Below, one piece after another: positions 2,934 through 34,111 of a stretch of DNA of 34,111 bases; position 1 is the stretch's first letter; every line of letters begins with the position of its first letter. A model generated the notes under the pieces. It was given only the letters and a program-made list of their open reading frames with translations, made no database searches and was not told the origin of the DNA. Position numbers and translations under genes: made by a program. Source of the stretch: Clostridia bacterium (GTDB lineage: Bacteria > Bacillota > DSM-521 > Neomoorellales > JACIYF01); assembly GCA_014360065.1 (NCBI GenBank), contig JACIYF010000017.1, forward strand, positions 1-34,111, in the 5' to 3' direction.

Positions 2934-3035
2934 GCGCCCAGCCCTCAACTCACGGACCCAGGCATGGCGTCCACCCTACCCAGGCAGTAAGCTACTTACG
3001 GAGCTATGGCCTCCTGGCGGTTGAGTGCTGGGCGC
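2934..3035 (+). repeat. Module A repeat (long inverted arms) upstream of mreD
   Basis: The arms at 2934-2949 and 3020-3035 are complementary at 15 of 16 positions and enclose 70 bases. The right arm, GTTGAGTGCTGGGCGC, recurs nearly unchanged at 15625-15640 (upstream of rpmA), 7836-7851 (upstream of cinA) and 29832-29845 (end of mobA). The mreD start used here (3102) lies 66 bases downstream. No protein is evident in the 194-base gap, although an open frame reads through it into mreD. Confidence 0.75.
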
Positions 3036-3101
3036 GTGGGCTTTGGAGCGATGGGACTCAAGCTGGGTGTTAGTAAAATATGGTTTCTCGGGGGAGTAAC
3101 T

Positions 3102-3608
3102 GTGCAGTTGATCTTTTGGCTAGGGCTATGGCTGATCGCCATGGTGCTCCAGTCTACGGTTCTTTCCGGCATTGCCCAAAACGGCATTAAGCCCGACCTG
3201 TTGGTAGTACTAATAGCAGTGGTGGGCCTGATCTGGGGTTGGCGCCCAGCCGTGGGGCTAGGGGCGCTATACGGCCTTTTGGAAGACCTCTTGGTGGGCA
3301 AGTTCTTCGGACTGAATACAGCTGCCAAGCTGGTCTGCGGGTTGGCCGCTGGCCTTAGCGAAAAGGGTATTTATAAGGAAAATATGTGGGCGCCGGTGGT
3401 GGTGGTATTCTTGGCTTCTTTGGCCCATGACCTGGTATTTGTAGGTTTGGGGATGGTAGCCGGCCTATCCACCGCCAGCCTAGCTTATAGTTTCATGCGG
3501 GTAACGGTAATATCGGGCTTGATCAACAGCTTGCTGGCCTTGTTTATTTATGGGCCGCTGCATACTTCGTCACGCAAAGGTTTCCTACGCCGTGGTATCT
3601 GGGGTTAG
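3102..3608 (+). CDS. mreD: Rod shape-determining protein MreD
   Basis: MreD is the small polytopic membrane protein of the elongasome; it works with MreC and MreB in lateral wall growth. From the GTG at 3102 the product has 168 residues, typical for the family, with about five hydrophobic segments. The family-like stretch KPDLLVVLIAVVGLIWG follows the first helix. The frame stays open upstream to 3006, but the 3102 start has GGGGGAG at 3090-3096 and removes a non-membrane extension that would be encoded by the upstream repeat. Sequence conservation in MreD is low, so the call rests on hydrophobicity, length and position between mreC and mrdA. Confidence 0.93.
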   Translation: MQLIFWLGLWLIAMVLQSTVLSGIAQNGIKPDLLVVLIAVVGLIWGWRPAVGLGALYGLLEDLLVGKFFGLNTAAKLVCGLAAGLSEKGIYKENMWAPVVVVFLASLAHDLVFVGLGMVAGLSTASLAYSFMRVTVISGLINSLLALFIYGPLHTSSRKGFLRRGIWG

Positions 3609-3643
3609 ACCGGAATACGGGCGGAATTTCGAGGTGGTAAGCG

Positions 3644-5689
3644 ATGGCTGACGAGAAGCGCATTCAGAAGAAAGTCCGTGTTTACCGGCTGGTAGTTGTC
3701 CTGGTGTTCGTAGTCCTTATTGGCCGGCTATTTTTCCTTCAGGTGGTTGAGGCCAACCAATATCAAGCTCGGGCGGCTCAGAATAGCACCCGCAAGTTGA
3801 CCATCCTGGCCCGGCGCGGGGACATCTTCGACCGCAATGGGCAGGTTTTGGCTACCACCCGGCCAGTATTTGCCATTACCTTTGATGCCCAAGGGGTAAA
3901 GGATGTACCTGGCGTGGCCAAGAAGTTAGCTTCCTTGATTGGGCGGCCTGACTTGGATGCCAAGGCCATTGAAGAAAAGGTCAAGACCCACCAGCCTCCT
4001 TACGAGCCAGCAGAAATATTGCAGCTGCAAGAGGACGACCCCGATACTTGGGCCATCGTCAGCCGCATTGCTGAGAATCAGCAGGATCTTCCCGGCGTAG
4101 ATATCCAGGAGGAGCCGCTCCGCTATTACCCTAACGGTCCTTTAGCTGGGCACGTGCTAGGGCAGGTGGGAGCCATTAGCCCCCAGGAGCTGGACCAATT
4201 CCGGCAGTACGGCTATGGGATGAACGACCAGATCGGAAAAGCGGGTTTGGAACGGGTCTACGAGCTATGGTTTCAGGGGGATCAAAACATTGGCCTCAAG
4301 GGCAAGGATGGTTTTCGCTTGATTGAGGTCAACAACCAAAACCGGAAAGTACGGGAACTGCCGGTGGGAGTCGATCCGGTTCCGGGCAACAACTTGGTCC
4401 TTACCTTGGATGCTAAGGTGCAGCAGGTAATGGAAAAATCCTTAAAGGAAACGATTGCCCAGGCCCATCAGCGGAATCCCAAGGCTAAGGCTGGCTCGGC
4501 CGTGCTTATTGACGTCCGCACTGGGGCCATCCTGGCTATGGCCAGTGAGCCTGAGGTAAATCCCAACGATTTTGTTACCGGCCTAAAGCCAGACAAGCTG
4601 GCCTATTATAATGATGAAAAGCTGCAGCCCCAGCTTAACCGGGCCATTCGGGCTGCCTACCCGCCTGGCTCGACCTTCAAGATGATCACCGGAATGGCCG
4701 CTTTGGAGAGCGGCAAGGTGACGCCTAGTTCGACTGTTACTTGCACCGGCGGCTACTGGGTCAAAGGTGGCATCAAGTGCTGGGGCGTGCATGGAGTAGT
4801 AGACCTTATCAAGGCTTACGCCAAGTCTTGTAATACTTACTTCCAGTGGGCTGGGGAACGGGCCGGCATCGATCTTATCTCTAAAATCGCTAAAGAGTTT
4901 GGTTTGGGAGAGAATAGCGGGGCCACCGATTGGCAGGGGGAGCGGCAAGGAACCAGACCTTCCCGCCAATGGAAGTACGACCTCTATGCCGCTTCCATCA
5001 ACCGCAAATATGATAACCTCCGCCGGCAGCTGGACCAGAAGTATGACAAGCTTCTAGCTGAGGCCAAGACCCAAGCCGAGAAAGACAAACTCAATGCCCA
5101 GAAGCAGCGGGACAAGGACAATCTGGAAGCCTGGTACAAAATCGACTTCGACTTCTACACCCAGTGGCAACCATATGACACCTACAATACTTCCATCGGC
5201 CAAGGGGCCAACGAATACACGCCCTTACAGTTGGCCAACTACGTTGCTACCTTGGCCAACGGGGGAAATCGCTGGAAGCCTTATCTGGTACAGCGGATTG
5301 TCAGCCCCGATGGCAAGGTGCTGCAAGAGTTTAAACCGCAGCTAATCCAGAAGGTGTCGGTTAGCCCCACCAGCATGGCCTTGGTGCGGCAGGGAATGCG
5401 GGCCGTCTGCGAGCCGGGAGGGACCGCTTATTCTGCCTTTAAGGATTTTCCGCCCCAATTTGCGGTAGCCGGCAAGACTGGTACTGCTCAAACCGGCCTA
5501 CCTACTGACGACAAGAAAAAGGATTTCCACGGGGTTTTTGTTGGTTTTGCGCCTTACGACAATCCCCAGGTAGCCATCGCGGTATACATCGAATATGGGG
5601 AGAGCGGATCGGCTTCGGCAGTGAAGGTAGCTCGGGAGGTGCTGCGCAGCTATTTTGGACTCGACAAGCAAAACCTTGCCAATTCATAG
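3644..5689 (+). CDS. mrdA: Penicillin-binding protein 2, class B transpeptidase
   Basis: This is the elongasome transpeptidase that cross-links peptidoglycan with RodA. The 681-residue product starts with a short cytoplasmic tail and one transmembrane segment (about residues 15-33). The PBP dimer region with RRGDIFDRNG near residue 57 follows, then the transpeptidase domain. Active-site motifs are S343-T-F-K346, S395-C-N397 and K611-T-G613. A highly charged, probably coiled-coil insertion of about 75 residues (roughly 436-512, rich in Lys, Asp, Gln and Leu) lies between SxN and KTG and is not part of the common core. ATG 3644 follows GAGGTGG. The gene closes the mre block and is followed by a clear terminator. 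Confidence 0.96.
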   Translation: MADEKRIQKKVRVYRLVVVLVFVVLIGRLFFLQVVEANQYQARAAQNSTRKLTILARRGDIFDRNGQVLATTRPVFAITFDAQGVKDVPGVAKKLASLIGRPDLDAKAIEEKVKTHQPPYEPAEILQLQEDDPDTWAIVSRIAENQQDLPGVDIQEEPLRYYPNGPLAGHVLGQVGAISPQELDQFRQYGYGMNDQIGKAGLERVYELWFQGDQNIGLKGKDGFRLIEVNNQNRKVRELPVGVDPVPGNNLVLTLDAKVQQVMEKSLKETIAQAHQRNPKAKAGSAVLIDVRTGAILAMASEPEVNPNDFVTGLKPDKLAYYNDEKLQPQLNRAIRAAYPPGSTFKMITGMAALESGKVTPSSTVTCTGGYWVKGGIKCWGVHGVVDLIKAYAKSCNTYFQWAGERAGIDLISKIAKEFGLGENSGATDWQGERQGTRPSRQWKYDLYAASINRKYDNLRRQLDQKYDKLLAEAKTQAEKDKLNAQKQRDKDNLEAWYKIDFDFYTQWQPYDTYNTSIGQGANEYTPLQLANYVATLANGGNRWKPYLVQRIVSPDGKVLQEFKPQLIQKVSVSPTSMALVRQGMRAVCEPGGTAYSAFKDFPPQFAVAGKTGTAQTGLPTDDKKKDFHGVFVGFAPYDNPQVAIAVYIEYGESGSASAVKVAREVLRSYFGLDKQNLANS

Positions 5690-5736
5690 CTTTAGGGTCG
5701 GTAGAAATATTGAAGATGGTGTCTTAATTTGCAGGA

Positions 5737-5767
5737 AAAGCGAGGAAAAAAGACCTCGTTTTTTCTT
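5737..5767 (+). terminator. Rho-independent terminator after mrdA
   Basis: CGAGG at 5741-5745 pairs with CCTCG at 5754-5758 across an 8-base A-rich loop and is followed by six T residues, then CTTT. The flanking A and T runs could extend the stem. It separates the mre-mrdA block from the min operon. Confidence 0.8.
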
Positions 5768-5858
5768 TAGCGTGGAAGGATTTGCAAAGGGGAATGTAGA
5801 AACTTAGTGCCAAAATTGGAGTAATTTAGGGCCTTGTGGGTTAGGAGGAGACGGCCCC

Positions 5859-6539
5859 GTGGACAAGTGGAAGGAAGAGGGCGCCAATCAGGAGCTAGCC
5901 AGTGCTTGGCTGCTAGAACCAGAGTTGGAAGTGGCCAGCTCTCCAGAGGCGAAACCTGAAGCTGGTGGTTCCACCGGGGAAGTGCTCGAGCTTTTCCCGG
6001 AGGAAGAGCCCCTGGGGGAGGATGTACCTGAGCCGTTGGCCGATGGCTACGGCGCCTCCAGTACAAGGGTTGAAGAACTCCAAGGTGAAGAGCCCGATTC
6101 TATTTTTGAAGGACCTGAGGTTTTCGACGGTGGTGCAGATGAGGACGATATCCCCGACGATTTTACCTTGTTGGTCCACCGCACCATCCGTTCTGGCCAG
6201 AGCATTTACTACCCAGGCAACGTAGTAATTTTGGGCGATGTCAACCCTGGGTCGGAAGTAGTGGCGGGTGGGAGCATCATCGTCTTGGGTTCGTGCCGGG
6301 GCATGGCTCACGCTGGGGCCAATGGCAATTGGCGGGCCACGGTAACCGCCTTTCGGCTCCAACCCATTCAGCTACGAATTGCTCACTACGTCAGCCGGGC
6401 TCCCGATGATGAAGAAAAGGGTGTTGGTGGCGGCGGGCCAGAGACGGCGCGAGTAGTCAACGGCCAGGTGGTAATTGAACCTTACGGGGATGGCATCAGC
6501 CGGAGCTTCAAGTTGGGTTACGAGCAGCCAAAAGACTAG
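5859..6539 (+). CDS. minC: Septum site-determining protein MinC, with atypical acidic N-terminus
   Basis: MinC blocks FtsZ ring assembly away from midcell and is activated and located by MinD. The 226-residue product has a clear C-terminal MinC beta-helix domain from about residue 100. It includes IRSGQSIYYPGNVVILGDVN, then a GSEVVAGGSIIVLGSCRG-type turn and MAHAG, with the conserved end that dimerises and binds MinD. The N-terminal 98 residues are rich in Glu, Pro, Gly and Ala and show nothing like the usual MinC N-terminal domain that inhibits FtsZ. GTG 5859 follows TAGGAGGAG. It heads minC-minD-minE; minD begins 16 bases later. The C-terminal assignment is solid; whether the protein inhibits FtsZ is open. 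Confidence 0.9.
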   Translation: MDKWKEEGANQELASAWLLEPELEVASSPEAKPEAGGSTGEVLELFPEEEPLGEDVPEPLADGYGASSTRVEELQGEEPDSIFEGPEVFDGGADEDDIPDDFTLLVHRTIRSGQSIYYPGNVVILGDVNPGSEVVAGGSIIVLGSCRGMAHAGANGNWRATVTAFRLQPIQLRIAHYVSRAPDDEEKGVGGGGPETARVVNGQVVIEPYGDGISRSFKLGYEQPKD

Positions 6540-6555
6540 GAAAGGGAGGAAAAAG

Positions 6556-7350
6556 ATGGGCGAAGTGATAGTCATCACCTCTGGGAAGGGGGGTGTCGGC
6601 AAGACTACCACCGTTGCCAATATCGGGACTGCCTTGGCCATGGAGGGGCGCAAGGTAGTGTTGGTGGACACTGACATTGGCTTGCGCAACCTGGACGTGG
6701 TCATGGGGTTAGAAAACCGAATTGTATACGATATTGTGGATGTGGTGCATGGTCATTGCCGACTGAAACAGGCATTAGTAAAGGATAAGCGCTTCGAAAA
6801 CCTTTTTCTCCTCCCCGCAGCTCAAACCAAGGACAAGACCGCAGTTAACCCAGAACAGATGAAGGAGTTGTCGGAAAACCTTCGGGAAGAATTTGATTTT
6901 GTCTTGGTTGATTGCCCGGCAGGTATCGAGCAAGGTTTCCGCAACGCTATCGCGGGGGCTCAACATGCGGTAGTTGTGACTACCCCGGAAGTGTCGGCGG
7001 TGCGAGATGCTGACCGGATCGTTGGACTTTTGGAGGCAGCTGATCTGCGAGATCCCAAATTGATCATCAACCGGATACGCCCCAGCATGGTAAAGCACGG
7101 GGATATGATGGATATCGATGACATCATCGATATCTTGGCGATTGAACTGCTGGGCATAGTTCCCGAGGATGAGTACATAATAGTATCTACTAACCGGGGC
7201 GAGCCAGCAGTGCTGGATCGATCATCGCGGGCGGGCCAAGCCTATCGCAACATTGCGGCTAGGATCAATGGCGAGGATGTACCCCTCATGGTTTTGGAAG
7301 AGCACACAGGGTTTATGTCGCGGCTGAGACGGCTAATAGGGATAAGCTAA
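6556..7350 (+). CDS. minD: Septum site-determining ATPase MinD
   Basis: MinD is a ParA-family ATPase that binds the membrane in its ATP form and recruits MinC. The 264-residue product starts with MGEVIVITSGKGGVGKTT, carrying the deviant Walker A lysines K11 and K16. The switch I region (DTDIGLRNLD), Walker B (VLVDCPAG) and the C-terminal amphipathic membrane-targeting helix (last dozen residues, SRLRRLIGIS) follow. ATG 6556 is chosen over the upstream in-frame codon at 6475 because GGGAGG lies just before it and the N-terminus matches the family exactly. The gap to minC is 16 bases and to minE 26 bases, so the three are one operon. Confidence 0.98.
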   Translation: MGEVIVITSGKGGVGKTTTVANIGTALAMEGRKVVLVDTDIGLRNLDVVMGLENRIVYDIVDVVHGHCRLKQALVKDKRFENLFLLPAAQTKDKTAVNPEQMKELSENLREEFDFVLVDCPAGIEQGFRNAIAGAQHAVVVTTPEVSAVRDADRIVGLLEAADLRDPKLIINRIRPSMVKHGDMMDIDDIIDILAIELLGIVPEDEYIIVSTNRGEPAVLDRSSRAGQAYRNIAARINGEDVPLMVLEEHTGFMSRLRRLIGIS

Positions 7351-7376
7351 CATCTGACACTTAAGGGGGGTTGGAC

Positions 7377-7676: not shown

Positions 7677-7691
7677 GCAGCCAGCAGCGGA

Positions 7692-7745
7692 GGACCAACG
7701 GCCAGGTGCCCCATGCGGCCAGCCGCATATGCCGGGCCGTGGTCC
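7692..7745 (+). other. Nested inverted repeats after minE
   Basis: GGACCAACGGCC at 7692-7703 pairs with GGCCGTGGTCC at 7735-7745 apart from one bulged A. Inside lies a perfect hairpin, ATGCGGC at 7713-7719 with GCCGCAT at 7722-7728. It starts 16 bases after the minE stop. No T run follows, so it is not a standard intrinsic terminator. It may be the 5' part of the repeat that continues into module A. Confidence 0.6.
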
Positions 7746-7851
7746 GGAAGCGACCCAGCACTCCAATCGGGGCTGTAGGCTTGGAGTCTAACCGAAGCAG
7801 ACAACCAACGCCTCGTCGGGTTATGTTGAGCCCTGGGTTGAGCGTTGGGCG
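7739..7851 (+). repeat. Module A repeat upstream of cinA/pncC
   Basis: CCGGAAGCGACCCAGCACTC at 7744-7763 matches the start of the copy at 15539 (one difference) and resembles the one at 22517. The right end, GGTTGAGCGTTGGGCG at 7836-7851, matches the module A right arm at 14 of 16 positions. The copy lies in the 211-base minE-cinA gap, in the direction of cinA, and ends 36 bases before its start. No protein is evident in this gap. Confidence 0.65.
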
Positions 7852-7887
7852 GCCGGCAGTAAATGTTCCTTTGAAGGAGGCTAGATA

Positions 7888-12933: not shown

Positions 12934-12954
12934 GTGCATCCGGCACCAGTGCCC

Positions 12955-12977
12955 CGGCACGGGGAACGTTTCGGAAG
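12955..12977 (+). repeat. Module D repeat upstream of rng
   Basis: This 23-base stretch matches 128-150 upstream of radC at 20 positions, with three transitions only. It contains the conserved GTTTCGGAAG. CCCCG and CGGGG around GCA can form a small hairpin here. It lies in the 73-base gap before rng, 29 bases from the start codon. Confidence 0.5.
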
Positions 12978-13006: not shown

Positions 13007-14530
13007 ATGTCTCAGATTATTTTGGTACAGGTAGAAGAGGAAGAGACCGCGGTAGCGGTCCTGGAGAACGGTAAACTGGTGGAAATCTATTTTGAGCGGC
13101 CCCTGCATGAGCGGATGGTTGGTAATATTTATAAAGGGCGAGTGGAAAATGTGCTCCCAGGCATGCAGGCAGCCTTCGTCGATATCGGCTTAGAGAAAAA
13201 TGCCTTCCTGTATGTGGAGGATATCCTACCGGCGGCAGTGGCTGATTGGGAATTGCCGGGAGAAAAGATTAGCTCTCGACCTATCAGCGAGCTTTTGCGG
13301 CCCGGGCAGGGGATATTGGTGCAGATCTCCAAAGAGCCCATCGGTACCAAAGGAGCTCGGGCTACTACCCATATCTCTCTGCCAGGCCGGTATGTGGTGC
13401 TGATGCCTACCGTGGATTATGTGGGTGTGTCCCGGCGGATTAGTAGCGAAGGGGAGAGGGATCGCCTCCGAGCCATGGCTAAGGAGATCAAGCCCAAGGG
13501 CATGGGGTTGATTGTGCGAACGGCAGCTGAAGGGGCTTCGGAGGAAGAGCTGGTCCAGGACATTAAGGAGCTGACAAAAGTATGGCGAGGTATCGAACGG
13601 CGCAGCCGGCGCCAGCGGGGGCCGGCGCTGGTGCACCGCGAGCTGGATCTCTTAGAGCGTATACTCCGGGATCTCTTTTCTGACCAGGTGGAGGCGCTGG
13701 TGACCAACTCTCGTGATGCTTACGAGCGGGCAACGGAAATTATGGATAGGCTAGACAGCCGGCTGCGAGAGCGAATCAAGCTGCGGGAAGGCCAGGACCT
13801 ATTTGCTCACTGGGAAGTGCCATCGCAAATCGATCAAGCTTTGCGCCGTAAAGTCTGGCTCAAATGCGGCGGTTACATCGTAATCGACCAGGCGGAGGCG
13901 CTCACTTCCATCGATGTCAATACCGGCAAGTATGTAGGTGGCAGAAATCTGGAGGATACGGTGGTCAAGACCAATCTTGAGGCGGCGGCCGAAATAGCCC
14001 GCCAGCTAAGGCTCCGCAATATCGGCGGGATCATTATCATCGATTTCATCGATATGGAGGATCCTGCCCATCAGGAGCAGGTGCTCAAAGCCCTGGAGGA
14101 GGAGCTCCGCAAGGACAAGACCAGGGCTACCGTGCTGGGCATGACTAGGCTGGGCTTGGTGGAAGTGACCAGGAAGAAGGCCCGGGGCGCCTTGGAGAGC
14201 GTGCTCCTGACCGAATGCCCTTATTGCGGGGGCCGGGGGAAAGTACTTTCCCAGGAGACGGTGGGCTTGGCGGTACGCAAGGAGATCCTTTACCGGGCAG
14301 AGATCACCGAGGCTCCTGGCCTGATCGTCAGGGCCAACCCGGCGGTGGCGGCCCAGCTCATTGGCTCCGGAGGCGTCAGTGTTCGGCTTCTGGAGCAGCG
14401 GACGGGAAAGACAATTATCATCAAGGGAGAAGAGCACCGCCACATGGAGAACTTTGTGGTCCAGGAGGTATTTGATGCTGAGGAGCTAGGCCAGGGGCGA
14501 GATCGGTCGACGGCCGCCACTTCCGGGTAA
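13007..14530 (+). CDS. rng: Ribonuclease G/E family endoribonuclease
   Basis: The 507-residue product matches RNase G and the catalytic half of RNase E, the 5'-end-sensing endonuclease that processes rRNA and degrades mRNA. An S1 RNA-binding segment lies at about residues 37-125 (GNIYKGRVENVLPGMQAAFVDIG region). The catalytic acidic residues are D303 (SIDVNTG) and D346 (DFIDMED). The zinc-link cysteines are C404 and C407 (CPYCGGRGK). These numbers coincide with those of E. coli RNase E. ATG 13007 is chosen over TTG 12998 because AGGAG at 12993-12997 is properly spaced only for the ATG. It has no long C-terminal degradosome scaffold, as expected for RNase G. Confidence 0.96.
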   Translation: MSQIILVQVEEEETAVAVLENGKLVEIYFERPLHERMVGNIYKGRVENVLPGMQAAFVDIGLEKNAFLYVEDILPAAVADWELPGEKISSRPISELLRPGQGILVQISKEPIGTKGARATTHISLPGRYVVLMPTVDYVGVSRRISSEGERDRLRAMAKEIKPKGMGLIVRTAAEGASEEELVQDIKELTKVWRGIERRSRRQRGPALVHRELDLLERILRDLFSDQVEALVTNSRDAYERATEIMDRLDSRLRERIKLREGQDLFAHWEVPSQIDQALRRKVWLKCGGYIVIDQAEALTSIDVNTGKYVGGRNLEDTVVKTNLEAAAEIARQLRLRNIGGIIIIDFIDMEDPAHQEQVLKALEEELRKDKTRATVLGMTRLGLVEVTRKKARGALESVLLTECPYCGGRGKVLSQETVGLAVRKEILYRAEITEAPGLIVRANPAVAAQLIGSGGVSVRLLEQRTGKTIIIKGEEHRHMENFVVQEVFDAEELGQGRDRSTAATSG

Positions 14531-15485: not shown

Positions 15486-15535
15486 GGCGCGCGGCTAAAT
15501 AGTGGGGCACTACCTAAAGGGGGTGCCGGGGCATT

Positions 15536-15700
15536 GATCCGGAAGCGACCCAGTACTCAACCATGAACCCGGTGAGGGTTATCGTAAAGGCCATGTGGGT
15601 GCAAGCAGCTCTTGCAAGTGTAAGGTTGAGTGCTGGGCGCTGGAGCTTGAGGTGGAGCTTCAGGCGGCTCCGCGCAGGATTACGGAGCCGAGGACTAGTG
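15536..15700 (+). repeat. Modules A and B repeat upstream of rpmA
   Basis: Module A has its left arm at 15546-15562 and its right arm GGTTGAGTGCTGGGCGC at 15624-15640. Between them lies GTGCAAGCAGCTCTTGC (15599-15615), which recurs upstream of leuS. Module B follows: GGAGC 15654-15658, 8-base loop, GCTCCG 15667-15672, 10-base loop, CGGAGC 15683-15688. The central GCTCCG can pair with either flank. The rpmA start is 56 bases downstream. The copy fills the prp-rpmA gap, where no protein is evident. Confidence 0.8.
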
Positions 15701-15744
15701 ACCCGGGTGGAATTGACGGGTTTTTGAAGGAGGAGGTGGAGGCA

Positions 15745-18868: not shown

Positions 18869-18978
18869 GCCAAGCTAGGGGAGCGCCTCACGTTGCAAGC
18901 CGGACAACCAGGCAAGGAAAAGGCAAGTGGGCGGTGCGGGGGCAAATGTCTTTTGGAGAGAAAGGAAGGAGTACATAA

Positions 18979-20241
18979 ATGCCCAAGGAAGTCCACGAAG
19001 AGGTTCTAACCAAGGCCCGGCTAGCCAAGGAGGCCAGCCGCCAATTGGCGGTGATGTCCAGCCAGGCTAAAAACCATGCCTTGGAAGCCATGGCTCAGGC
19101 TTTGGAAAAGAAATACGAAAGCCTGCTCGAGGCCAACGAGGTGGACATGGAGGCTGCTAAGGCCAAGGGCTTCAGCCGAGCTCTCTTGGATCGCCTTTTG
19201 CTTACTCAGGATCGGATCATGGAGATGGCTAAAGGGTTGAGGGCATTGGTAGCCTTGGATGATCCCATCGGCGAGACCATCCGTATGTGGACCCGACCCA
19301 ATGGTCTTGAGATCGGCCAAGTGCGGGTACCCCTGGGGGTAGTGGGCATGATCTATGAGGCCCGCCCCAATGTTACCGTAGATGCAGCTGGGCTTTGTCT
19401 TAAGACTGGAAATGCGGTCTTGCTGCGGGGAGGATCCGAGGCCATTAATTCCAACGCTGCCCTAGCTCGGGTGATTGCTGCTGCCGCTGAAGGGGCGGGG
19501 ATGCCAGCCGGCTGCATCCAGCTGATTGAGAATACCGACCGGGAAGCAGTAAATCTAATGATGACTTTAAATGAGTATTTGGACGTGCTCATCCCCCGAG
19601 GTGGAGCTGGGCTCATCCAAGCTGTAGTTAAGAATGCCACCGTGCCAGTTATCGAAACGGGAGTAGGGAATTGTCACATTTACGTGGATGAAGATGCGGA
19701 TATCGACATGGCTACTGCCATTGTGGTGAATGCTAAGACCCAACGTCCTGGGGTGTGCAATGCGGCCGAGACCTTACTGGTGCACCAGCGTATAGCGGAG
19801 AAGGCACTACCGCCCATAGCTGAAAAGCTCCAGGCGGCAGGGGTGGAGCTGCGTGGATGTCCCCGAGCGGTGGCCTTGGTGCCAAGTATGGAGGCGGCCA
19901 CCGAGGAGGACTGGGCGACGGAGTACTTGGACCTTATTATGGCGGTTAAGGTGGTGGACAGCTTTGAGGAAGCGGTGGATCACATCAATCGTTACGGCAC
20001 CAAGCATTCTGAAGCCATCGTCACGCAAAGTTACCAGCGGGCCCGCCGCTTCCAAAAGGAAGTAGATGCTGCTTGTGTCTACGTTAACGCTTCCACCCGC
20101 TTTACCGATGGTTTCCAGTTCGGTTTTGGGGCCGAGATCGGCATCAGCACCCAGAAGCTCCATGCTCGGGGGCCCATGGGCCTGGAAGCTCTGACCAGCA
20201 TCAAGTATGTGATTAATGGTGAGGGCCAGATCCGCCAATAG
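18979..20241 (+). CDS. proA: Glutamate-5-semialdehyde dehydrogenase (gamma-glutamyl phosphate reductase)
   Basis: ProA reduces gamma-glutamyl phosphate with NADPH to glutamate semialdehyde in proline synthesis. The 420-residue product has the full length and the aldehyde dehydrogenase-like fold. Landmarks are PLGVVGMIYEARPNVTVDAA, then LRGGSEAINSN, and QRPGVCNAAETLL, which carries the catalytic Cys. The C-terminal end is LGFGAEIGIST-like (FGFGAEIGISTQKLHARGPMG). ATG 18979 has GGAAGGAG upstream. The 110-base proB-proA gap shows no promoter or hairpin I can support. Confidence 0.97.
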   Translation: MPKEVHEEVLTKARLAKEASRQLAVMSSQAKNHALEAMAQALEKKYESLLEANEVDMEAAKAKGFSRALLDRLLLTQDRIMEMAKGLRALVALDDPIGETIRMWTRPNGLEIGQVRVPLGVVGMIYEARPNVTVDAAGLCLKTGNAVLLRGGSEAINSNAALARVIAAAAEGAGMPAGCIQLIENTDREAVNLMMTLNEYLDVLIPRGGAGLIQAVVKNATVPVIETGVGNCHIYVDEDADIDMATAIVVNAKTQRPGVCNAAETLLVHQRIAEKALPPIAEKLQAAGVELRGCPRAVALVPSMEAATEEDWATEYLDLIMAVKVVDSFEEAVDHINRYGTKHSEAIVTQSYQRARRFQKEVDAACVYVNASTRFTDGFQFGFGAEIGISTQKLHARGPMGLEALTSIKYVINGEGQIRQ

Positions 20242-20372
20242 ATCTTCCCAACCCAGCATCGGTCCTCACCCGCAGCCAGATGAGTCATCCCTGCCTTCTG
20301 GTCTGCCCTAGGCCTCGTAAGCCAGCGACTTTTCTTGAGCGGCTAGCCCAACTTAGCGAGGCTGCAAATGGA

Positions 20373-20410
20373 GGCGGGGCCCGAAGGCATGGACGCCCGA
20401 GGCTGGCGTC
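20373..20410 (+). repeat. Possible degenerate module C repeat upstream of the tRNA gene
   Basis: GGCGGGGCC followed by GGACGCCCGAGGCTGGCGTC resembles the first half of module C at the window ends (GGCGGGGCC, then GGACGTCCGAGGCCGGCCTC). GACGCC and GGCGTC form a perfect hairpin. It lies in the 245-base gap between proA and the tRNA, which holds no gene I can see. The match is partial. Confidence 0.35.
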
Positions 20411-20445
20411 TACTGAAAACTGGGATGCTCCAGCGCAGCCAGCTC

Positions 20446-22174: not shown

Positions 22175-22424
22175 AGACAAGTCAAGGAAGGCTCTAGATT
22201 GCACCCAACGCGAAGAACGGGAGTAGTAGGAGGGTTCAAGCCTCGAAGAGAGCCGTTGGCTGGTGGAAAACGGCAGGACACCTTCCCAACTCGCCCGGGA
22301 GTTTAGCGGTGCCGTAGGCAGGCGTTAACTGCTTAAGCGGGTTGCTGGCTGAATCCTTGGTCGGCAGCCAACTGGGGTGGTACCGCGGGAGATTCCCGCC
22401 CCGAGGAGGGGCGGTTTTTTTATG
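22175..22424 (+). ncRNA. T-box leader, leucine-specific, with terminator
   Basis: The T-box sequence AACTGGGGTGGTACCGCGGG is at 22370-22389. In stem I, CGGG (22218-22221) pairs with CCCG (22294-22297), and GGAGGG (22229-22234) pairs with CCTTCC (22281-22286). They enclose the specifier loop with AGTAGTA on the 5' side and AACTCG on the 3' side. The specifier codon CTC (22290-22292) reads leucine and agrees with leuS downstream. The terminator has stem CCGCCCC (22396-22402) and GGGGCGG (22408-22414), followed by seven T. Uncharged tRNA-Leu(GAG) should bind the specifier and the T-box bulge and allow read-through into leuS. Confidence 0.95.
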
Positions 22425-22499
22425 GGCGGAAATGGAAATTGACAAAAGAGCACCCCGGGCGGCTGGCTGCACAGCTAGCCATGAAAAAAGCACGTAGGG

Positions 22500-22715
22500 G
22501 ATGCTGGGGCGCTGGTCCGCAAGCGACATAAGCCGACCCAGCACTCAACCATGAAGCTGGGGCGTGGGTCTTTGTAGAGGTCACGTAGGTGCAGGCAGCT
22601 CTTGCTAGTGTAACCGAGTGTAGCGTTGAGTGTTGAGCGGAACCCGAGATGGAGCTTTGGGTGGCTCCGCGAAGGATTTCGGAGCGGAGGAACGGCGCTC
22701 CAGCTAGAGATATAC
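22500..22715 (+). repeat. Modules A and B repeat between the T-box terminator and leuS
   Basis: Module A: CCCAGCACTCAACC near 22535-22550 with GTTGAGTGTTGAGCGG at 22625-22640, and GTGCAGGCAGCTCTTGC near 22589-22605, as in the rpmA copy. Module B: GGAGC 22651-22655, 8-base loop, GCTCCG 22664-22669, 10-base loop, CGGAGC 22680-22685, then GGAGGAAC. leuS starts 52 bases further on. The copy lies downstream of the T-box terminator, so it is only in read-through transcripts. No protein is evident between 22093 and 22737. Confidence 0.8.
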
Positions 22716-22737
22716 GTTTTTCCGGGAGGTGAAGGTA

Positions 22738-27758: not shown

Positions 27759-28805
27759 CTAGATCCTCCAGGCTTGGATGCAGGTTTCGGCGGCCGGGGT
27801 TACCAGCAGCACTCCGGCTGCCGTTTTTTCTCCTTGCTCCTCGGTGTCCTTTGCGCTGGGCTTTTTGCCGGTGAGCTGGCGGTACACTATCGCCACGGGA
27901 GCAGGGCTGTCCTTGGGGGCATCGCAGTAGCGGGCCGTCAATTGGGCGGCGGCCGCCAGCTCCTCGCTTCCCACCCTACCGGTGGCGATGGTCAGCGGCC
28001 CTTGGTAATCCTTGGCCTCCAGCAGATAGTCGCCCTCCCGAGCCAACTGGCAAAGCTTCTCGTTTTCCGCCTGATTCCGGCCTACGATAACCTTGGCTTG
28101 GGGCGAAACCCGGAAATGCCTTCCTAGATTGAGGCGGTTGACTTCGGCGTAGCTAAGGCTACCCTGGTAGCGCAAAAGATCGGCTATTTTCTTGCCGTAT
28201 TCCTTGTAGGTGAGAAGGCAGCCTCCAGCGGGGGTGGCAAAGCCGGTGATGCCATAGCGCTCGGCCAAGGCCAGCTGCTCCTTGCGGGAGCGCCCCTTTA
28301 TGCCCAGGAGCTTGGACCGGTCCACCCACCCCTTGATTTCAGGGATGGTGGGCTTCATCACCAGAGCCGACAGGGGACGCAAAACTAACCCCTCCAGGCC
28401 GGATTCCCGATCAATGATGGCCATGGCATCGGGCCGTTGGGAGTTAGGCCGTTGGCCTACCACTTCGCCGGTTATGAGGTATGCGGCCTCAAGCTTAGGG
28501 AACAAGCTAGCGGCCAGCTTGAAACCGTATATCCGGCAGTCGGTGCAAGGATTCATATTCTTGCCGTAGCCAAAGCGAGGATTTTCGATCACCCGCAGGT
28601 AGTCTTCCGGGTATGGTTGCACGTGTAGTTTCACCCCCAACTGTCGGGCCAGGTCAACCACGTAGTCGGGAGCTTCGGTACCGTTCTTAGATTGATAAAA
28701 GGGGCTGGTGAAATGCAAGGCCTCCACCGTGGCGCCTGCTTCCTGAGCCACCTTTACTGCTAGTGCACTATCCAAACCGCCTGAAAACAGGGCGAGACCT
28801 TTCAT
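27759..28805 (-). CDS. PP-loop ATPase, tRNA thiolation (MnmA/ThiI)-like
   Basis: The 348-residue product starts MKGLALFSGGLDSALAVKVA, the PP-loop (SGGLDS) of ATP pyrophosphatases that activate a carbonyl oxygen for sulfur transfer. NPCTDCRIYGFKLA near residue 95 and GFATPAGGCLLT near residue 210 hold conserved cysteines that may carry persulfide. Members are often annotated as tRNA 2-thiouridine or 4-thiouridine enzymes, but the typical MnmA tRNA-binding and ThiI THUMP domains are not seen. The start at 28805 has AAGGAGG at 28814-28820, on the minus strand. It is the only minus-strand gene, divergent from the cofactor operon. The substrate is uncertain. Confidence 0.82.
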   Translation of the reverse strand: MKGLALFSGGLDSALAVKVAQEAGATVEALHFTSPFYQSKNGTEAPDYVVDLARQLGVKLHVQPYPEDYLRVIENPRFGYGKNMNPCTDCRIYGFKLAASLFPKLEAAYLITGEVVGQRPNSQRPDAMAIIDRESGLEGLVLRPLSALVMKPTIPEIKGWVDRSKLLGIKGRSRKEQLALAERYGITGFATPAGGCLLTYKEYGKKIADLLRYQGSLSYAEVNRLNLGRHFRVSPQAKVIVGRNQAENEKLCQLAREGDYLLEAKDYQGPLTIATGRVGSEELAAAAQLTARYCDAPKDSPAPVAIVYRQLTGKKPSAKDTEEQGEKTAAGVLLVTPAAETCIQAWRI

Positions 28806-28840: not shown

Positions 28841-28895
28841 TAGGGTGGGGCGCTGTTCCTTCGCTCCGTAATCCTTTGCGGAGCCACCCATCCTT
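28841..28895 (-). repeat. Module B repeat in the leader of the minus-strand PP-loop gene
   Basis: Read on the minus strand it gives GATGGGTGGCTCCGC, then AAAGGATTACGGAGC and GAAGGAAC, the same core as upstream of rpmA and leuS. GCTCCG (28884-28879) and CGGAGC (28868-28863) are intact with the 10-base loop. The first GGAGC strand is not preserved. The start codon is 57 bases downstream on the minus strand. The copy is therefore inverted together with its gene. Confidence 0.78.
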
Positions 28896-28910: not shown

Positions 28911-28939
28911 ATCTTAACCAGATTACTCGGAATTGTAAA
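28911..28939 (-). promoter_or_regulatory. Promoter of the minus-strand PP-loop gene
   Basis: On the minus strand TTTACA (28939-28934), a 17-base spacer and TAAGAT (28916-28911). Transcription would start near 28904, just before the module B repeat, which is thus the 5' part of this mRNA. Confidence 0.65.
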
Positions 28940-29033
28940 CAGGCGCTTTTATGACCATAAAAATTTGCTCCTAGAAGGATTTTAAGTCTAGCGTGCCGAA
29001 TACTAAATTGTACTTAATCAGAATTGCATATGA

Positions 29034-29163
29034 ATCTCCGAGCCAGGAAGGCCTAAAGGCTAAACGATAGCTTATGGCGCCTGGCCTGAGCCTTAGAGCT
29101 CACGGGGTGCAGGGACTTCGGTCCAACCGGAAACGGCTGCGCCTCCACGTATGGGAAGGAGAT
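29034..29163 (+). ncRNA. Candidate Moco/Tuco-family riboswitch aptamer
   Basis: P1 is ATCTCC (29034-29039) with GGAGAT (29158-29163). Inside, GGCGC (29076-29080) pairs with GCGCC (29139-29143), and TGAGC (29087-29091) with GCTCA (29098-29102). GCAG (29109-29112) pairs with CTGC (29137-29140) around two hairpins, GGAC-TTCG-GTCC and CCG-GAAA-CGG, the latter a GNRA tetraloop. GCC-TAAA-GGC is at 29051-29060. Position before mobA-moeA-mobB-moaA, size and the GNRA element fit the Moco RNA family, recalled rather than searched. Whether molybdenum or tungsten cofactor is sensed cannot be told. Confidence 0.75.
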
Positions 29164-29199
29164 ATGTTTACCCTGTATCCTCCCCATACAGGGTTTTTT
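29149..29199 (+). terminator. Riboswitch expression platform: terminator with competing antiterminator
   Basis: The terminator is ACCCTGTAT (29170-29178) with ATACAGGGT (29186-29194) and six T. The antiterminator pairs 29149-29160 (GTATGGGAAGGA) with 29178-29189 (TCCTCCCCATAC) at 11 of 12 positions. Its 5' strand overlaps the 3' strand of P1, so a ligand-stabilised P1 should free the terminator and switch the operon off. Confidence 0.85.
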
Positions 29200-29218
29200 C
29201 ATGCTAGGGGGCGGAAAT

Positions 29219-29836
29219 TTGTTAGAGGCGGCAGGCATTATTCTCTCCGGCGGCAAGAATTCGCGCATGCGCGCCAACAAGGCCTTTTTAACCGTAGGAG
29301 AGCAGCGTATCATCGATAAGACTGTGTTCCTGTTTAAGAGGATCTTCCCCCAAGTGATCGTGGTTACCAATCAACCCGAAGCCTATGCCTATCTAGGAGT
29401 TGAGCTAGCCCGGGATCGGGTGCTGGGCATGGGACCGTTGAGCGGTATGGAGGCGGGCCTAAAGGTCTCTTCCTATTTTTACAATTTCCTTGTGGCCTGC
29501 GATATGCCCTTCATCAACTCTAGGTTTATAGAGTTATTGCTGGAGAGAACTGTCGATGAGAAGGGCCAAACCTACGATGTGGTAATTCCGCGGATGGCTG
29601 ACGGGCGATTGCAGCCCCTTTATGCCGTTTATTCCAAGAATTGCCTTGCGCCCATTAAGGCTTGCCTGGATAGAGGCATTTCGAAAATTCTTGAGTTCTA
29701 CACTCAGATCCGGATACGGTATGTCGAGGAAGCAGAGCTGGCTGCCTATGGGGACGTGAAAGCTACCTTCTTTAACGTCAACACTCCCGATGATCTGACC
29801 AAGGCGCAAGCCATGGCCCAGCTGCTGGGCGATTGA
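29219..29836 (+). CDS. mobA: Molybdenum cofactor guanylyltransferase MobA
   Basis: MobA attaches GMP to Mo-molybdopterin to make the guanine dinucleotide cofactor. From TTG 29219 the product has 205 residues and starts with LEAAGIILSGGKNSRMRANKAFL. This carries the nucleotide-binding LSGGxSxRM-type loop and the lysine that follows; LVACDMPFI is the metal-binding region. The ATG at 29201 is in frame but directly abuts the terminator T run and has no SD, while TTG 29219 has AGGGGG at 29206-29211. It is the first gene after the riboswitch. Its stop codon lies inside a copy of the module A right arm. Confidence 0.92.
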   Translation: MLEAAGIILSGGKNSRMRANKAFLTVGEQRIIDKTVFLFKRIFPQVIVVTNQPEAYAYLGVELARDRVLGMGPLSGMEAGLKVSSYFYNFLVACDMPFINSRFIELLLERTVDEKGQTYDVVIPRMADGRLQPLYAVYSKNCLAPIKACLDRGISKILEFYTQIRIRYVEEAELAAYGDVKATFFNVNTPDDLTKAQAMAQLLGD

Positions 29837-29922
29837 GTGCTGGGCAGAGCCGAAGCCAGCCGCTTCCCCCATCACTGGAGGCCGAGATGAGCGCTAAGTG
29901 GCTCCGCGCAGGATAACAAATC
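29832..29922 (+). repeat. Module A right arm and module B between mobA and the molybdopterin-binding gene
   Basis: TTGAGTGCTGGGC at 29833-29845 is the module A right arm and contains the TGA stop of mobA. Module B follows with GAGC 29889-29892, 8-base loop, GCTCCG 29901-29906 and CGCAGGATAA. The second hairpin partner is lost (CAAATC in place of CGGAGC). The next start codon is 28 bases after the position where module B would end. No left arm is evident. Confidence 0.65.
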
Positions 29923-29950
29923 TTTTTCTGGAAAAGAGAGGACAATGGCT

Positions 29951-31009
29951 ATGCAGAAGGTAAGGGTTGAAGAAGCGGTGGGGATGGTGCTGGGCCACGA
30001 TCTGACCAAGATCATACCTGGCCAGTCCAAGCGGGCAGCCTTCAAAAAGGGTCATATTATCCAACCCGAAGACATTCCTCAACTTTTGGATATGGGTAAA
30101 GAGCACCTGTACGTGTTGGACCTAGGCGAAGACCTGGTTCACGAGGATGAAGCTGCCCAGCGGATAGCCCGGGCCGCGGTGGAAAAGCCTCGCCCTGACG
30201 GCTCTCCCGACGGGGTTGGATTTGTCATCAGCTCTCCCTCCGAGGGTAAAGTCAATATTACCACCGCCCACCGAGGGCTGTTGCAGGTGAGGGCGGAGCT
30301 GGTGGATGCCATTAACTCTATCGATGACGTGGTTCTGGCGACCTTGGGCAACAACCTACCGGTGGAAAAAGGCGAGCTGGTGGCTGGTTCCCGGGTCATA
30401 CCGCTGGCTATCCCCAAAGCGGCCATTATCAAGGTGGAGGCCATATGTGCCCAGGCGGGGCCGGCGTTGGACCTTTTGCCTTACCGCACCCATCGGGTGG
30501 GGATAGTCACTACCGGCAACGAGGTATTTTCGGGCCGGATCCAGGATGGCTTTGGGCCAGCCATCAAGAAGAAGCTGGCCCAGTACCCGGCGGAAATATT
30601 GGGACAGGAAATCGTTCCCGATGACGCCCAGCGCATTCGGGAAGCCATTTTTAGGTTCAGGCAACAAGGGGCCACCCTAATCCTGGTGACCGGAGGAATG
30701 TCGGTAGATCCCGACGATGTTACCCCCAGCGCCATCCGGTCTACCGGCGCCGAAGTGGTTACTTATGGAGTGCCGGTGCTCCCCGGGGCCATGCTCCTGG
30801 TAGCCTACCTGGAGGGCTTGCCGCTTGTAGGAGTGCCTGGGTGCGTTATGTACGACAAGACCACCGCCTTTGACTTGGTGCTGCCGCGGCTGTTTGCGGG
30901 AAAAAAGATTACCAAGCCGGAGCTAGTAAAGCTGGGCTATCGGGGACTGTGCCGCAAGTGTGAGGTTTGTGTCTGGCCCCGCTGCAGCTTCGGGCAGGGG
31001 GAGGCGTAG
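29951..31009 (+). CDS. Molybdopterin-binding (MoCF_biosynth domain) protein with C-terminal Cys cluster
   Basis: The 352-residue product begins MQKVRVEEAVGMVLGHDLTKI. A MoeA/MogA-type molybdopterin-binding domain follows from about residue 175 (THRVGIVTTGNEVFSGRIQDGFGPAI; LILVTGGMSVDPDDVTPSAIR; PGAMLLVAYLEG). The C-terminus has four cysteines in CRKCEVCVWPRCSFG, perhaps binding a metal. ATG 29951 is preferred to 29945 because of spacing to GAGAGG. The family is known from anaerobes with molybdenum or tungsten enzymes but has no settled function; insertion of metal or a carrier role is possible. It is followed seven bases later by moeA, so it is part of the cofactor operon. Confidence 0.88.
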   Translation: MQKVRVEEAVGMVLGHDLTKIIPGQSKRAAFKKGHIIQPEDIPQLLDMGKEHLYVLDLGEDLVHEDEAAQRIARAAVEKPRPDGSPDGVGFVISSPSEGKVNITTAHRGLLQVRAELVDAINSIDDVVLATLGNNLPVEKGELVAGSRVIPLAIPKAAIIKVEAICAQAGPALDLLPYRTHRVGIVTTGNEVFSGRIQDGFGPAIKKKLAQYPAEILGQEIVPDDAQRIREAIFRFRQQGATLILVTGGMSVDPDDVTPSAIRSTGAEVVTYGVPVLPGAMLLVAYLEGLPLVGVPGCVMYDKTTAFDLVLPRLFAGKKITKPELVKLGYRGLCRKCEVCVWPRCSFGQGEA

Positions 31010-31015
31010 AATGCC

Positions 31016-32245
31016 GTGCAGCAAATGCTGGCGCTGGAAGCGGCGCAAGAATTGGTATTGAGTCGGGTTCGGCTTTTGAAATCAGAGGTTGTGCCCCTGA
31101 CCCAAGCCAGCGGTCGGGTATTGGCCCAGGATATAAAGGCGAAGGATCCCCTGCCGCCCTTCAACCGTAGCGCTGTGGACGGCTATGCTGTAGTTGCCCA
31201 AGCTACCCAAGGTGCTTCGCCTCAAGCTCCGGTGACCTTACAGGTCATTGAAGAGGTGGCGGCTGGGTACGTAGCCACAAAAAAGGTATCTTGGGGGACC
31301 GCCATCCGCATTTTGACCGGGGCGCCGGTTCCGGAGGGGGCCGATGCCGTGGTTCGGCAGGAGGAGGTCGAGCGCCAAGGTGAGCTTGTCAAGTTAAAAG
31401 GACCGTCTCGCCACCTTGAGAATATCGATTTAGCAGGCCGGGATGTAGCTACGGGCGAGCTAGTGCTGGCTAAGGGCACCCGAATTGGGACCGGAGAGGT
31501 GGGAATGCTGGCGGCCCTGGGGCACGCCCGAGTTGAGGTTTTCCAGCGCCCGCGGGTGGCCATTGTCAGCACCGGCGATGAAATCATCGATGTGGCTGAG
31601 CCCTTGGCCCCTGGCAAAGTGCGCAACAGCAACCTCTATGCCCTGGCGGCTTCGGTGGAAGCCGCCGGAGGCAAGCCGATCCTAGTGGGAGCGGTGCCCG
31701 ACGATGCTGAAGCTATAGCCCGAGCCATCATGAGGGTTGCTCCTGAGGTCGATCTGATCATTAGTTCGGGCGGGGTGTCGGTGGGGGATTACGATTTGGT
31801 ACACCGGGCTTGGGAACTCCTCGGCGCGGAAGTACTCTTTTGGAAAGTAGCCATAAAGCCTGGTACTCCCATCCTGTGGGGGCAGCTGGGCCCCGTGCCG
31901 CTGGCGGGGCTTTCCGGCAATCCCGCTGCCTGCCTGATCGGCTTTGAACAGCTAGTACGCCCGGTCATCAGGCGCTTGGGCGGCTATAACAAGGCTTTTT
32001 GGCCCCAGGTGACTGGCATCTTAGAAGACGCTTATTCCAAAGCTAGCCGCCAACGGCGATTCTTGCGAGCTCGGGCTCGCTGGCAGGAAGGCGAATGGCG
32101 TATTCGGCTCACCGGTGCCCAAAGCCCTGGCATCTTGAGGTCAATGCTGGGGTGTAATGCCTTAGTAGATGTGCCGGCCGGGAGCGGGCCGCTGGCTGCG
32201 GGGGAGAAGGTTAAGGCCTGGCTGTTGATCGAAGGCTTAGACTAA
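31016..32245 (+). CDS. moeA: Molybdopterin molybdenumtransferase MoeA
   Basis: MoeA inserts molybdate (or tungstate) into adenylated molybdopterin. The 409-residue product has the MoeA N-terminal part (TQASGRVLAQDIKAKDPLPPFNRSAVDGYAV, then GTAIRILTGAPVPEGADAVVRQE) and the molybdopterin-binding domain (RVAIVSTGDEI; ISSGGVSVGDYDLV; PLAGLSGNPAACLIGFE). It ends with MoeA domain IV. GTG 31016 follows GGGGGAGG at 30998-31005. The preceding gene is a second protein with the same domain. MobB follows after 17 bases. Confidence 0.95.
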   Translation: MQQMLALEAAQELVLSRVRLLKSEVVPLTQASGRVLAQDIKAKDPLPPFNRSAVDGYAVVAQATQGASPQAPVTLQVIEEVAAGYVATKKVSWGTAIRILTGAPVPEGADAVVRQEEVERQGELVKLKGPSRHLENIDLAGRDVATGELVLAKGTRIGTGEVGMLAALGHARVEVFQRPRVAIVSTGDEIIDVAEPLAPGKVRNSNLYALAASVEAAGGKPILVGAVPDDAEAIARAIMRVAPEVDLIISSGGVSVGDYDLVHRAWELLGAEVLFWKVAIKPGTPILWGQLGPVPLAGLSGNPAACLIGFEQLVRPVIRRLGGYNKAFWPQVTGILEDAYSKASRQRRFLRARARWQEGEWRIRLTGAQSPGILRSMLGCNALVDVPAGSGPLAAGEKVKAWLLIEGLD

Positions 32246-32262
32246 AGCGGAGGTTAGAAGGT

Positions 32263-32757
32263 ATGGTTCCAGTTATCTCCATAGTAGGCCGTTCCGATAC
32301 CGGCAAGACCACCCTGATTGAAAAGCTGGTGCCTGAGCTTAAAAGGCGGGGGTACCGGGTGGGCACCATTAAGCACGATGCCCACCAGTTTGAAATTGAT
32401 GTGCCTGGCAAGGATAGCTGGCGCCACCGCCAAGCCGGATCCGATGCTACGGCCATATCTTCAGCTGACAAGCTGGCCATCATCTGGCGGGTGGAGGGGG
32501 AGAAGAGCTTAGATGAAGTGGCTGCCTACATGCAGGACGTGGATATCATTTTGACCGAGGGCTACAAGCGCTCCCACAAGCCCAAGGTGGAGGTTCACCG
32601 GGCGGAGCGAGGTGGGGAGCTGCTTTGTAACGACGATGAACTGGTGGCCGTAGCCACCGATGAGCCGGTGAATACCCAGGCGCCGTGTTTTGATATCAAT
32701 GATGCCAAGGGCTTAGTCGATTTGTTGGAGGCAAGGTTCCTAAAGCCCAAAGCCTAG
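32263..32757 (+). CDS. mobB: Molybdopterin-guanine dinucleotide biosynthesis adapter MobB
   Basis: MobB is a GTP-binding partner of MobA; it helps cofactor maturation but is not strictly needed. The 164-residue product starts MVPVISIVGRSDTGKTTLIEKLVPELKRRG with the P-loop G9-RSDTGKTT17, and contains the family stretch TIKHDAHQFEIDVPGKDSWRHRQAG. DIILTEGYKRSHKPKVEVHR follows. ATG 32263 has GGAGG at 32250-32254. It lies 17 bases after moeA and 19 bases before moaA, in one operon. Confidence 0.95.
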   Translation: MVPVISIVGRSDTGKTTLIEKLVPELKRRGYRVGTIKHDAHQFEIDVPGKDSWRHRQAGSDATAISSADKLAIIWRVEGEKSLDEVAAYMQDVDIILTEGYKRSHKPKVEVHRAERGGELLCNDDELVAVATDEPVNTQAPCFDINDAKGLVDLLEARFLKPKA

Positions 32758-32776
32758 AGGTGGGGAGGTCAGCCAG

Positions 32777-33757
32777 GTGGAGGATCGATTTCGCCGCTTG
32801 ATAGACTACCTTAGGGTTTCCGTAACCGACCGCTGCAATTTGCGCTGCCGGTACTGCATGCCTGAGGAGGGTATTCCCTTAAAAAGGCATGAAGATATCC
32901 TCCGCCTGGAGGAAATAGCTTACCTGGTTGATTGCGCGGCCGGTCTGGGGGTGCGCAAAGTGCGCCTCACCGGCGGTGAGCCCCTGGTAAGAAAAGACTT
33001 GCCGGCATTGGTTTCTCACCTCAGGGCTATTCCCCAGATTGAAGACCTCTCCCTTACCACCAATGGCCTTCTTCTAGCCCATTACGCTGGCGCCCTAAAG
33101 CAGGCGGGGCTCAATCGGGTGAATATCAGCCTGGATACCATGGACGCGGATCGTTACCGCTACATCACCCGAGGAGGAGATTTAAATCAAGTGCTGGCCG
33201 GAATAGAAGCGGCTAAGGAGGCGGGCCTTCATCCCATCAAGATCAATACCGTAGTGGTTCGGGGGTTTAATGATGACGAAGTGGTGGCCTTTGCCCGGAT
33301 GGCCCAAGCCACCAATACTCACGTCCGCTTCATTGAACTAATGCCCATCGGTGAGGGAATGGCCTGGAGTCAGGATGCCTTTGTCTCTGCCGATGAGATT
33401 TTGGAGGCTCTCAGGGAGGAACTGGAGCTACGGCCTACCTCGGAGGTAGTCGGCAACGGGCCAGCCCAGTACTACGCTTTGCCGCAATCGACGGGAACCA
33501 TAGGGTTCATTCCTGCCTTGAGCCATGCCTTTTGCCACCGGTGCAATCGCCTGCGGCTTACTGCTGAGGGCTCCTTAAGGCCATGCTTGCAGAGCGATGT
33601 GGAGGTTGATCTCAAGTCCCCCCTGCGGCAGGGGGCGAGCCGGCAGGAGATTGAGGGACTTTTCCTGCGGGCCTTGAAACTTAAACCCTGGCGGCATTGC
33701 TTTGATGCTGAGGGTTGGCTCCACCAGCGCCGGCGGATGTCACAAATTGGAGGCTAG
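32777..33757 (+). CDS. moaA: GTP 3',8-cyclase MoaA
   Basis: MoaA is the radical SAM enzyme that starts molybdopterin synthesis from GTP, together with MoaC. The 326-residue product has the N-terminal cluster C20-xxx-C24-xx-C27 (VTDRCNLRCRYCMPEEG) and the SAM-binding LTGGEPLVRKDL. The C-terminal cluster is in FCHRCNRLRLTAEGSLRPCL, and the protein ends in the conserved Gly-Gly (SQIGG), which is essential in the family. GTG 32777 follows GGTGGGGAGG. moaC, moaD, moaE and moaB/mogA are not in the window; they must lie elsewhere or beyond its right end. Confidence 0.96.
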   Translation: MEDRFRRLIDYLRVSVTDRCNLRCRYCMPEEGIPLKRHEDILRLEEIAYLVDCAAGLGVRKVRLTGGEPLVRKDLPALVSHLRAIPQIEDLSLTTNGLLLAHYAGALKQAGLNRVNISLDTMDADRYRYITRGGDLNQVLAGIEAAKEAGLHPIKINTVVVRGFNDDEVVAFARMAQATNTHVRFIELMPIGEGMAWSQDAFVSADEILEALREELELRPTSEVVGNGPAQYYALPQSTGTIGFIPALSHAFCHRCNRLRLTAEGSLRPCLQSDVEVDLKSPLRQGASRQEIEGLFLRALKLKPWRHCFDAEGWLHQRRRMSQIGG

Positions 33758-33781
33758 AAACCTGAGAAGGTGCCTCATGTA

Positions 33782-34111
33782 CGGCCAGGCGGGCCGGAGG
33801 GTAGGACACCCGGAGCCGGCCACGGACATGGAGGTCCGATTGGCCGGGAAGCCCGCCGGAACCTGAGATGGAGCACAAGCTCGCTCCGCGCAGGATTTCG
33901 GAGCGGAGGAACAGTTCCAGCTGGAAATACATGTTGGTGCATCCGAAAGAAGCATGAAAATGCCGAGGATGCTGGCGCAAGGCGACTTTGGGCGAGCCTC
34001 GCGAGACGTCGGCGAGACCGAGCCCGGAGGCGGGGCCGAGGACAGGACGTCCGAGGCCGGCCTCTTGAGACAGGAGGTCGAATTGGCCGGGAACCCCGCC
34101 GAAGGGCGAGG
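33782..34111 (+). repeat. Tandem repeat modules C, B, A-like and C at the right edge
   Basis: A diverged module C is at 33782-33860. Module B follows with GGAGC 33870-33874, 8-base loop, GCTCCG 33883-33888, 10-base loop and CGGAGC 33899-33904, then GGAGGAACAGTTCCAGCTGG, which contains most of a perfect 12-base palindrome (33915-33926). GGATGCTGGCGCAAGGCGAC at 33967-33986 resembles the start of the leuS copy. The last 76 bases (34036-34111) equal bases 1-76. No gene is seen in these 354 bases after moaA; the next gene is presumably beyond the edge. Confidence 0.8.

Follow-up and report, generated by a model that had tools for sequence, protein, structure and literature searches.

The window, meaning the whole stretch of 34,111 nucleotides analysed here, makes up an entire contig (C17) in a 3.04-Mb draft genome of 242 contigs from a Clostridia bacterium. 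A composite repeat with two parts, modules A and B, is present in it as about a dozen copies or remnants. Module B is a structured element of about 220–300 nt; module A is 94–98 bp in most copies (about 96 bp), ends in 13-bp terminal inverted repeats (CCCAGCACTCAAC) and comprises several interior subfamilies. Unless stated otherwise, the copies lie on the plus strand. The contig begins within the core of a second-type B element (1–175, with core positions 8–72 at 1–65) that stops 6 nt before radC. Upstream of mreD, a 96-bp module A with its 13-bp terminal inverted repeats (2937–3032) is bordered on its left by a remnant of the 5' end of B (GGAGTGCCTCATGCG, 2922–2936, recognised by eye against L125:7400), and upstream of cinA a module A of another subfamily (7754–7849) is flanked by B remnants on its 5' (..TGGTCCGGAAGCGA) and 3' (CGGCCGGCAGTAAATG) sides; these two copies consist only of module A within B remnants. 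A 3'-end remnant of second-type B (12938–12977) precedes the gene at 13007 by 30 nt. The B frame before rpmA (15517–15724) has a 5' part, a module A (15549–15637) and a 3' part whose GGA hairpin (CTCCGCGCAGGATTACGGAG) lies at 15668. It is followed by a 5'-end remnant of B (18888–18942), which precedes the gene at 18979 by 37 nt, and by a remnant that keeps the core's first half (GGCGGGGCCCGAAGGCATGGACGCCCGAGGC, 20324–20415).

Farther along the contig, a T-box leader (22204–22406) precedes leuS, and a second B frame (22458–22721; 5' part, module A at 22537–22637, 3' part with its GGA hairpin at 22665) is placed between it and the gene, such that the leuS leader consists of a T-box and the repeat in series. 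A 3' part of B with its GGA hairpin (28842–28890, minus strand) precedes the minus-strand ThiI-like gene at 27759–28805; nearby, a Moco riboswitch (29024–29177) precedes a MobA-like gene. Before the molybdopterin-binding-domain gene, the right end of a module A (29832–29844) is fused to a B 3' part, the fused copy spanning 29832–29922. The contig closes with a first-type B whose complete three-way-junction core (33788–33857) scores 80.4 bits, its 3' part extending to about 33935, and with the start of a second-type B (33940–34111; complete core at 34029–34100, 90.3 bits) that is cut by the contig end. Positions 1–76 and 34036–34111 are an identical 76 nt of second-type B; as both contig ends fall in this element, the assembly probably broke at the repeat, and copies are therefore likely to be under-represented in the draft. 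An earlier, sequence-only reading had listed seven copies, all of which are present and share the direction of the gene that follows, as does the inverted one ahead of the minus-strand gene; the list lacked four sense remnants (1–175, 12938–12977, 18888–18942 and 20324–20415).

Copy number, orientation and dynamics

The repeat is not a product of chance, since the terminal 13-mer, allowing at most one mismatch, occurs 132 times genome-wide versus twice for its reversed control. In 1.37 Mb of stretches of the window's own genome, chosen partly for contigs with hits, 120 merged elements were found; if this sample is typical, the genome is estimated to hold about 250–265 elements, a figure that the sampling may inflate. 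These elements are nearly always intergenic, and the downstream gene is on the same strand in 102 cases and on the opposite strand in 14. The gaps that hold them are co-directional in 92 cases, divergent in 12 and convergent in 2; within co-directional gaps, 85 elements share the direction of the genes and 9 oppose it (binomial p about 1e-16), where A-only copies were oriented by alignment. Of the 43 elements that end in the 3' module, 39 are co-oriented with the gene, and 31 of these end 10–45 nt, mostly 14–25 nt, before the start codon as placed by a simple codon-usage gene caller; in general, the 3' end falls 14–45 nt upstream of the start. A replication-strand cause of this orientation was considered and dropped: in gaps on the locally minority strand, elements still lean towards the direction of the genes (10 with, 3 against), a tendency short of significance (p = 0.09).

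Sense bias recurs in three lineages of the window's order (85:9 in the own genome, 12:1 in G009 and 29:10 in a set drawn mostly from genus g3). In two distant many-copy genomes the orientation is random (3:3 in G267 and 2:5 in G243), with several copies in convergent gaps. Elsewhere, a few genomes' single copies run antisense to the genes beside them. Given the random orientation in these distant genomes, the sense bias is, on this evidence, a feature of the window's order and not of the RNA family. The sequence-only reading had proposed that the repeat stands upstream of unrelated genes in a fixed sense orientation and had named many randomly oriented copies as what would count against it: the own genome is far from random, and the lock was found only in the order.

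At some sites B is old. Between hisB and hisH, two species carry it entire, and in others internal deletion has left the 3' end together with the ribosome-binding site. At two orthologous loci in species of one genus (L261/L272; L260, L248/L271), a B body of roughly 206 bp is inverted in place between collinear flanks. In a Moorella-like genus, another multi-copy repeat of several hundred bp (L262:2610–3170, L294) hosts a nested B, and this host repeat occurs elsewhere without B (L262 versus L294/L295).

Module B and the TwoAYGGAY family

At the core of B, a three-way junction bears a pair of hairpins with A(N)GGA loops; it can be written GGCGGGG[CCGAGGAC-AGGAU-GUCCGAGG][CCGGCC..GGC-AAGGAU-GCC..GGCCGG]GAACCCCGCC; a third GGA hairpin sits in the 3' part. 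Per full element, the number of GGA hairpins is at least two or three. In 38 distinct core sequences, whose alignment was fitted to the model and hence leans towards structure, 96.7% of cells are paired versus 27–46% in slid controls, 20 of the 22 core pairs show double changes (141 double-change cells versus 29 when shuffled), and covariation reaches 0.512 versus 0.139 shuffled. An MAFFT alignment that was not fitted to the model (A1) still has 95.4% of cells paired, versus 22–52% slid, and the GA/GA flanks of hairpin 1 (CCGAGGAC..GUCCGAGG) are visible in it. The covariation bears out the proposal that the repeat contains an RNA-like structure under selection. GGA is kept in both core loops in 36 of the 38 sequences, and there are 5.9 A(N)GGA motifs per element in sense, versus 3.7 after shuffling (maximum 5.6 in 200 shuffles) and 0.08 in antisense. 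An intact copy folds stably (z -4.75); the fold of the mosaic at leuS does not stand out (z -1.08). The asymmetry of G-U over A-C, which would mark the transcribed strand, is 42:27 (p = 0.09) and 9:8. A recognisable core is kept in only about 20 of the 120 elements sampled from the own genome; the Moorella-type relatives mostly carry B without A, a single genome having as many as 44 matches.

B shares with TwoAYGGAY RNA (Rfam RF01731; Weinberg 2010, PMC2864571) a junction closed by a stem, from which two hairpins with A(Y)GGAY-like loops project. Another mark of that family is tandem G-A pairs in a stem, to which the GA/GA flanks of hairpin 1 may correspond. Against Rfam, no match was found for the window copies, which score far below the family cut-off of 43 bits, and none up to E 10 for the own intact copy; a Moorella-type copy scores 23.5 bits. 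A search of 300 phylum genomes with the B core as a model (R1) reveals it in 49, and in 38 of 216 genera; one of these homologues, from another family (L319), scores 48.3 bits for TwoAYGGAY, above the cut-off, with four others at 39–43 bits. Judged from these scores, the B core grades into TwoAYGGAY through homologues in other genomes, though the window copies miss the cut-off, and the earlier statement that no described family matches the repeat no longer holds for the B core. The window repeat is probably a lineage-specific burst of a TwoAYGGAY-type RNA that is used between cistrons as a sense leader and carries A within it. Sub-threshold c-di-GMP-II-GAG matches on some copies were taken as chance.

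Some genomes carry the core in other settings. One has two tandem cores about 300 nt apart (L329:1200–1270), and opposite one of them, on the complementary strand, lies an overlapping match to Bacillaceae-1 RNA just under its threshold (31.2 versus 35), the other RNA predicted to bind CsrA, in its case in reverse complement (PMC4333381). Three genomes of one genus (L320–L322) have a single core each, a candidate free-standing sRNA, and in L321 it lies antisense between C-terminal-protease-like and glycerate-kinase-like genes.

TwoAYGGAY was itself predicted in 2014 to bind CsrA, from motif matching (PMC4333381). A CsrA is encoded by 48 of the 49 genomes with the core (the match in G022 being weak) versus 165 of the 251 without it (Fisher p = 5e-7, phylogeny ignored). 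The own genome encodes csrA, with an adjoining ORF read as FliW-like. Given the GGA-loop motif and this co-occurrence, CsrA most likely binds B at its GGA hairpins, as predicted from sequence, which fits the earlier suggestion that the repeat might be the target of an RNA-binding protein.

Module A, an insert within B

The sequence-only reading had treated A and B as one family; they are different things, B being the TwoAYGGAY-like RNA and A a 96-bp inverted-repeat insert. Short, present in many copies and with no ORF, A resembles a miniature inverted-repeat transposable element (MITE). Within B it is found either way round, and most copies have B sequence directly at their ends; the seemingly solitary copies at mreD and cinA thus sit in B remnants. 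At one orthologous locus (L243 versus L277), A in one species occupies the exact place of a small hairpin loop, GGAACCC, in the other. A looks like a MITE-like element with a taste for hairpin loops, nested in B. Terminal inverted repeats with target duplications and a linked transposase had been named as evidence that would overturn the earlier reading: A does have the inverted repeats, while its flanks show no target duplication (orthologues with and without A differ by loop replacement), none of four DDE_Tnp_1 loci in the own genome shares its ends, and 20 unpaired ends led to no parent transposon. No described family was found for A. Over all A subfamilies, RNAalifold keeps only the terminal stem, and a single conserved fold was accordingly dropped. 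An integron attC site, whose RYYYAAC/GTTRRRY ends fit, was rejected in view of dispersed single copies, a conserved outer CCCAGC and no array. One further genome (G019, L377–L394) has 93 module A ends but no more than 3 matches to B, and the interiors of its A copies form a different subfamily.

Explanations and comparison with known systems

The explanation favoured here, with rather more confidence than doubt, is that B is a dispersed RNA of the TwoAYGGAY kind serving as a sense leader, that CsrA most likely binds its GGA hairpins and that A is a separate insert. From its sense position between stop codon and ribosome-binding site, we infer that B is transcribed within mRNAs. Its long closing stem, whose 3' strand ends beside the ribosome-binding site, holds the two-GGA-hairpin junction; the transcript would offer the hairpins to CsrA at that place, affecting either the downstream gene or the amount of free CsrA. 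B multiplied in the window's order, where it was kept mainly in sense, and insertion of A into its hairpin loops produced the mosaic copies. Against this explanation stand the window copies without a TwoAYGGAY match, the many own-genome copies without a core, the antisense position of some single copies and the random orientation in distant genomes.

That same random orientation, together with the high copy number, the lack of an ORF, the terminal inverted repeats, the nesting in another repeat, the internal-deletion decay at hisB-hisH and the in-place inversions, would suit a selfish, non-autonomous DNA element whose repeats and hairpins serve transposition, with the sense bias a leftover of selection against antisense copies in operons, for example those that create terminators. 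This is an appreciable but minority possibility, as the strong covariation and the GGA held in the loops of 38 distinct sequences, and the near-exclusive occurrence with csrA, are unexpected of a plain DNA transposon, and neither a target duplication nor, at the four DDE loci, a transposase sharing the A ends was seen. Alternatively, the copies might leave their own genes unregulated and jointly titrate CsrA in step with overall transcription, as a distributed sponge. Sequestration is the one published idea for TwoAYGGAY (PMC4333381), and several GGA hairpins per full element and many unrelated host operons agree with it; a sponge has no need for the fixed distance of 14–25 nt to the start codon, however, and a recognisable core survives in only about 20 of the 120 sampled elements; we consider it rather unlikely. 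That all these genes have in common a metabolite riboswitch or a leader of the ribosomal-protein type is highly improbable: the repeat does sit upstream of genes, in a window that also holds a T-box and a Moco riboswitch, but the genes behind it (mreD, cinA, rpmA, leuS, radC and molybdopterin genes) are unrelated, domain content varies strongly between copies and the core matches only TwoAYGGAY among Rfam families. The sequence-only reading had argued from the missing common pathway in the same direction, and the same observation argues against ordinary CsrA targeting.

Within the favoured explanation of B as a CsrA-binding leader lies a bolder version, which we regard as rather doubtful: a mobile CsrA-binding RNA would have become a genome-wide leader in the order, its sense copies on dozens of unrelated operons putting translation or free CsrA under CsrA control and in-place inversion acting as an off switch. 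Should the sense copies affect translation, repeats would have brought many operons at a stroke under one global RNA regulator. For TwoAYGGAY, an uncharacterised family, the results supply a distribution that is wide and can be counted, together with an independent tie to CsrA (48 of 49 genomes); closely related species in which the same gene has the element, lacks it or has it inverted provide natural experiments.

Bacterial MITEs include Correia, RUP and similar elements, which module A resembles in its length of about 96 bp, terminal inverted repeats, lack of an ORF, dispersal and nesting; it differs from them in the absence of a detected target duplication or cognate transposase, in replacing hairpin loops and in having constant-length subfamilies with diverged interiors. 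The BOX elements of pneumococcus are also modular, structured, intergenic and near genes, but they are unrelated in sequence and have no GGA-loop junction. With the CsrA-sequestering sRNAs CsrB, CsrC and RsmZ, B shares several GGA-loop hairpins and occurrence with csrA; unlike them, it is dispersed in gene gaps instead of forming a single free-standing sRNA, and its binding of CsrA is a prediction. The closest relative is TwoAYGGAY, reported from Clostridiales, which has the same junction-closing stem and two hairpins with A(Y)GGAY-type loops, and from which B stands apart by its very high copy number, its sense placement before start codons, its extra 3' GGA hairpin and the module A nested within it.
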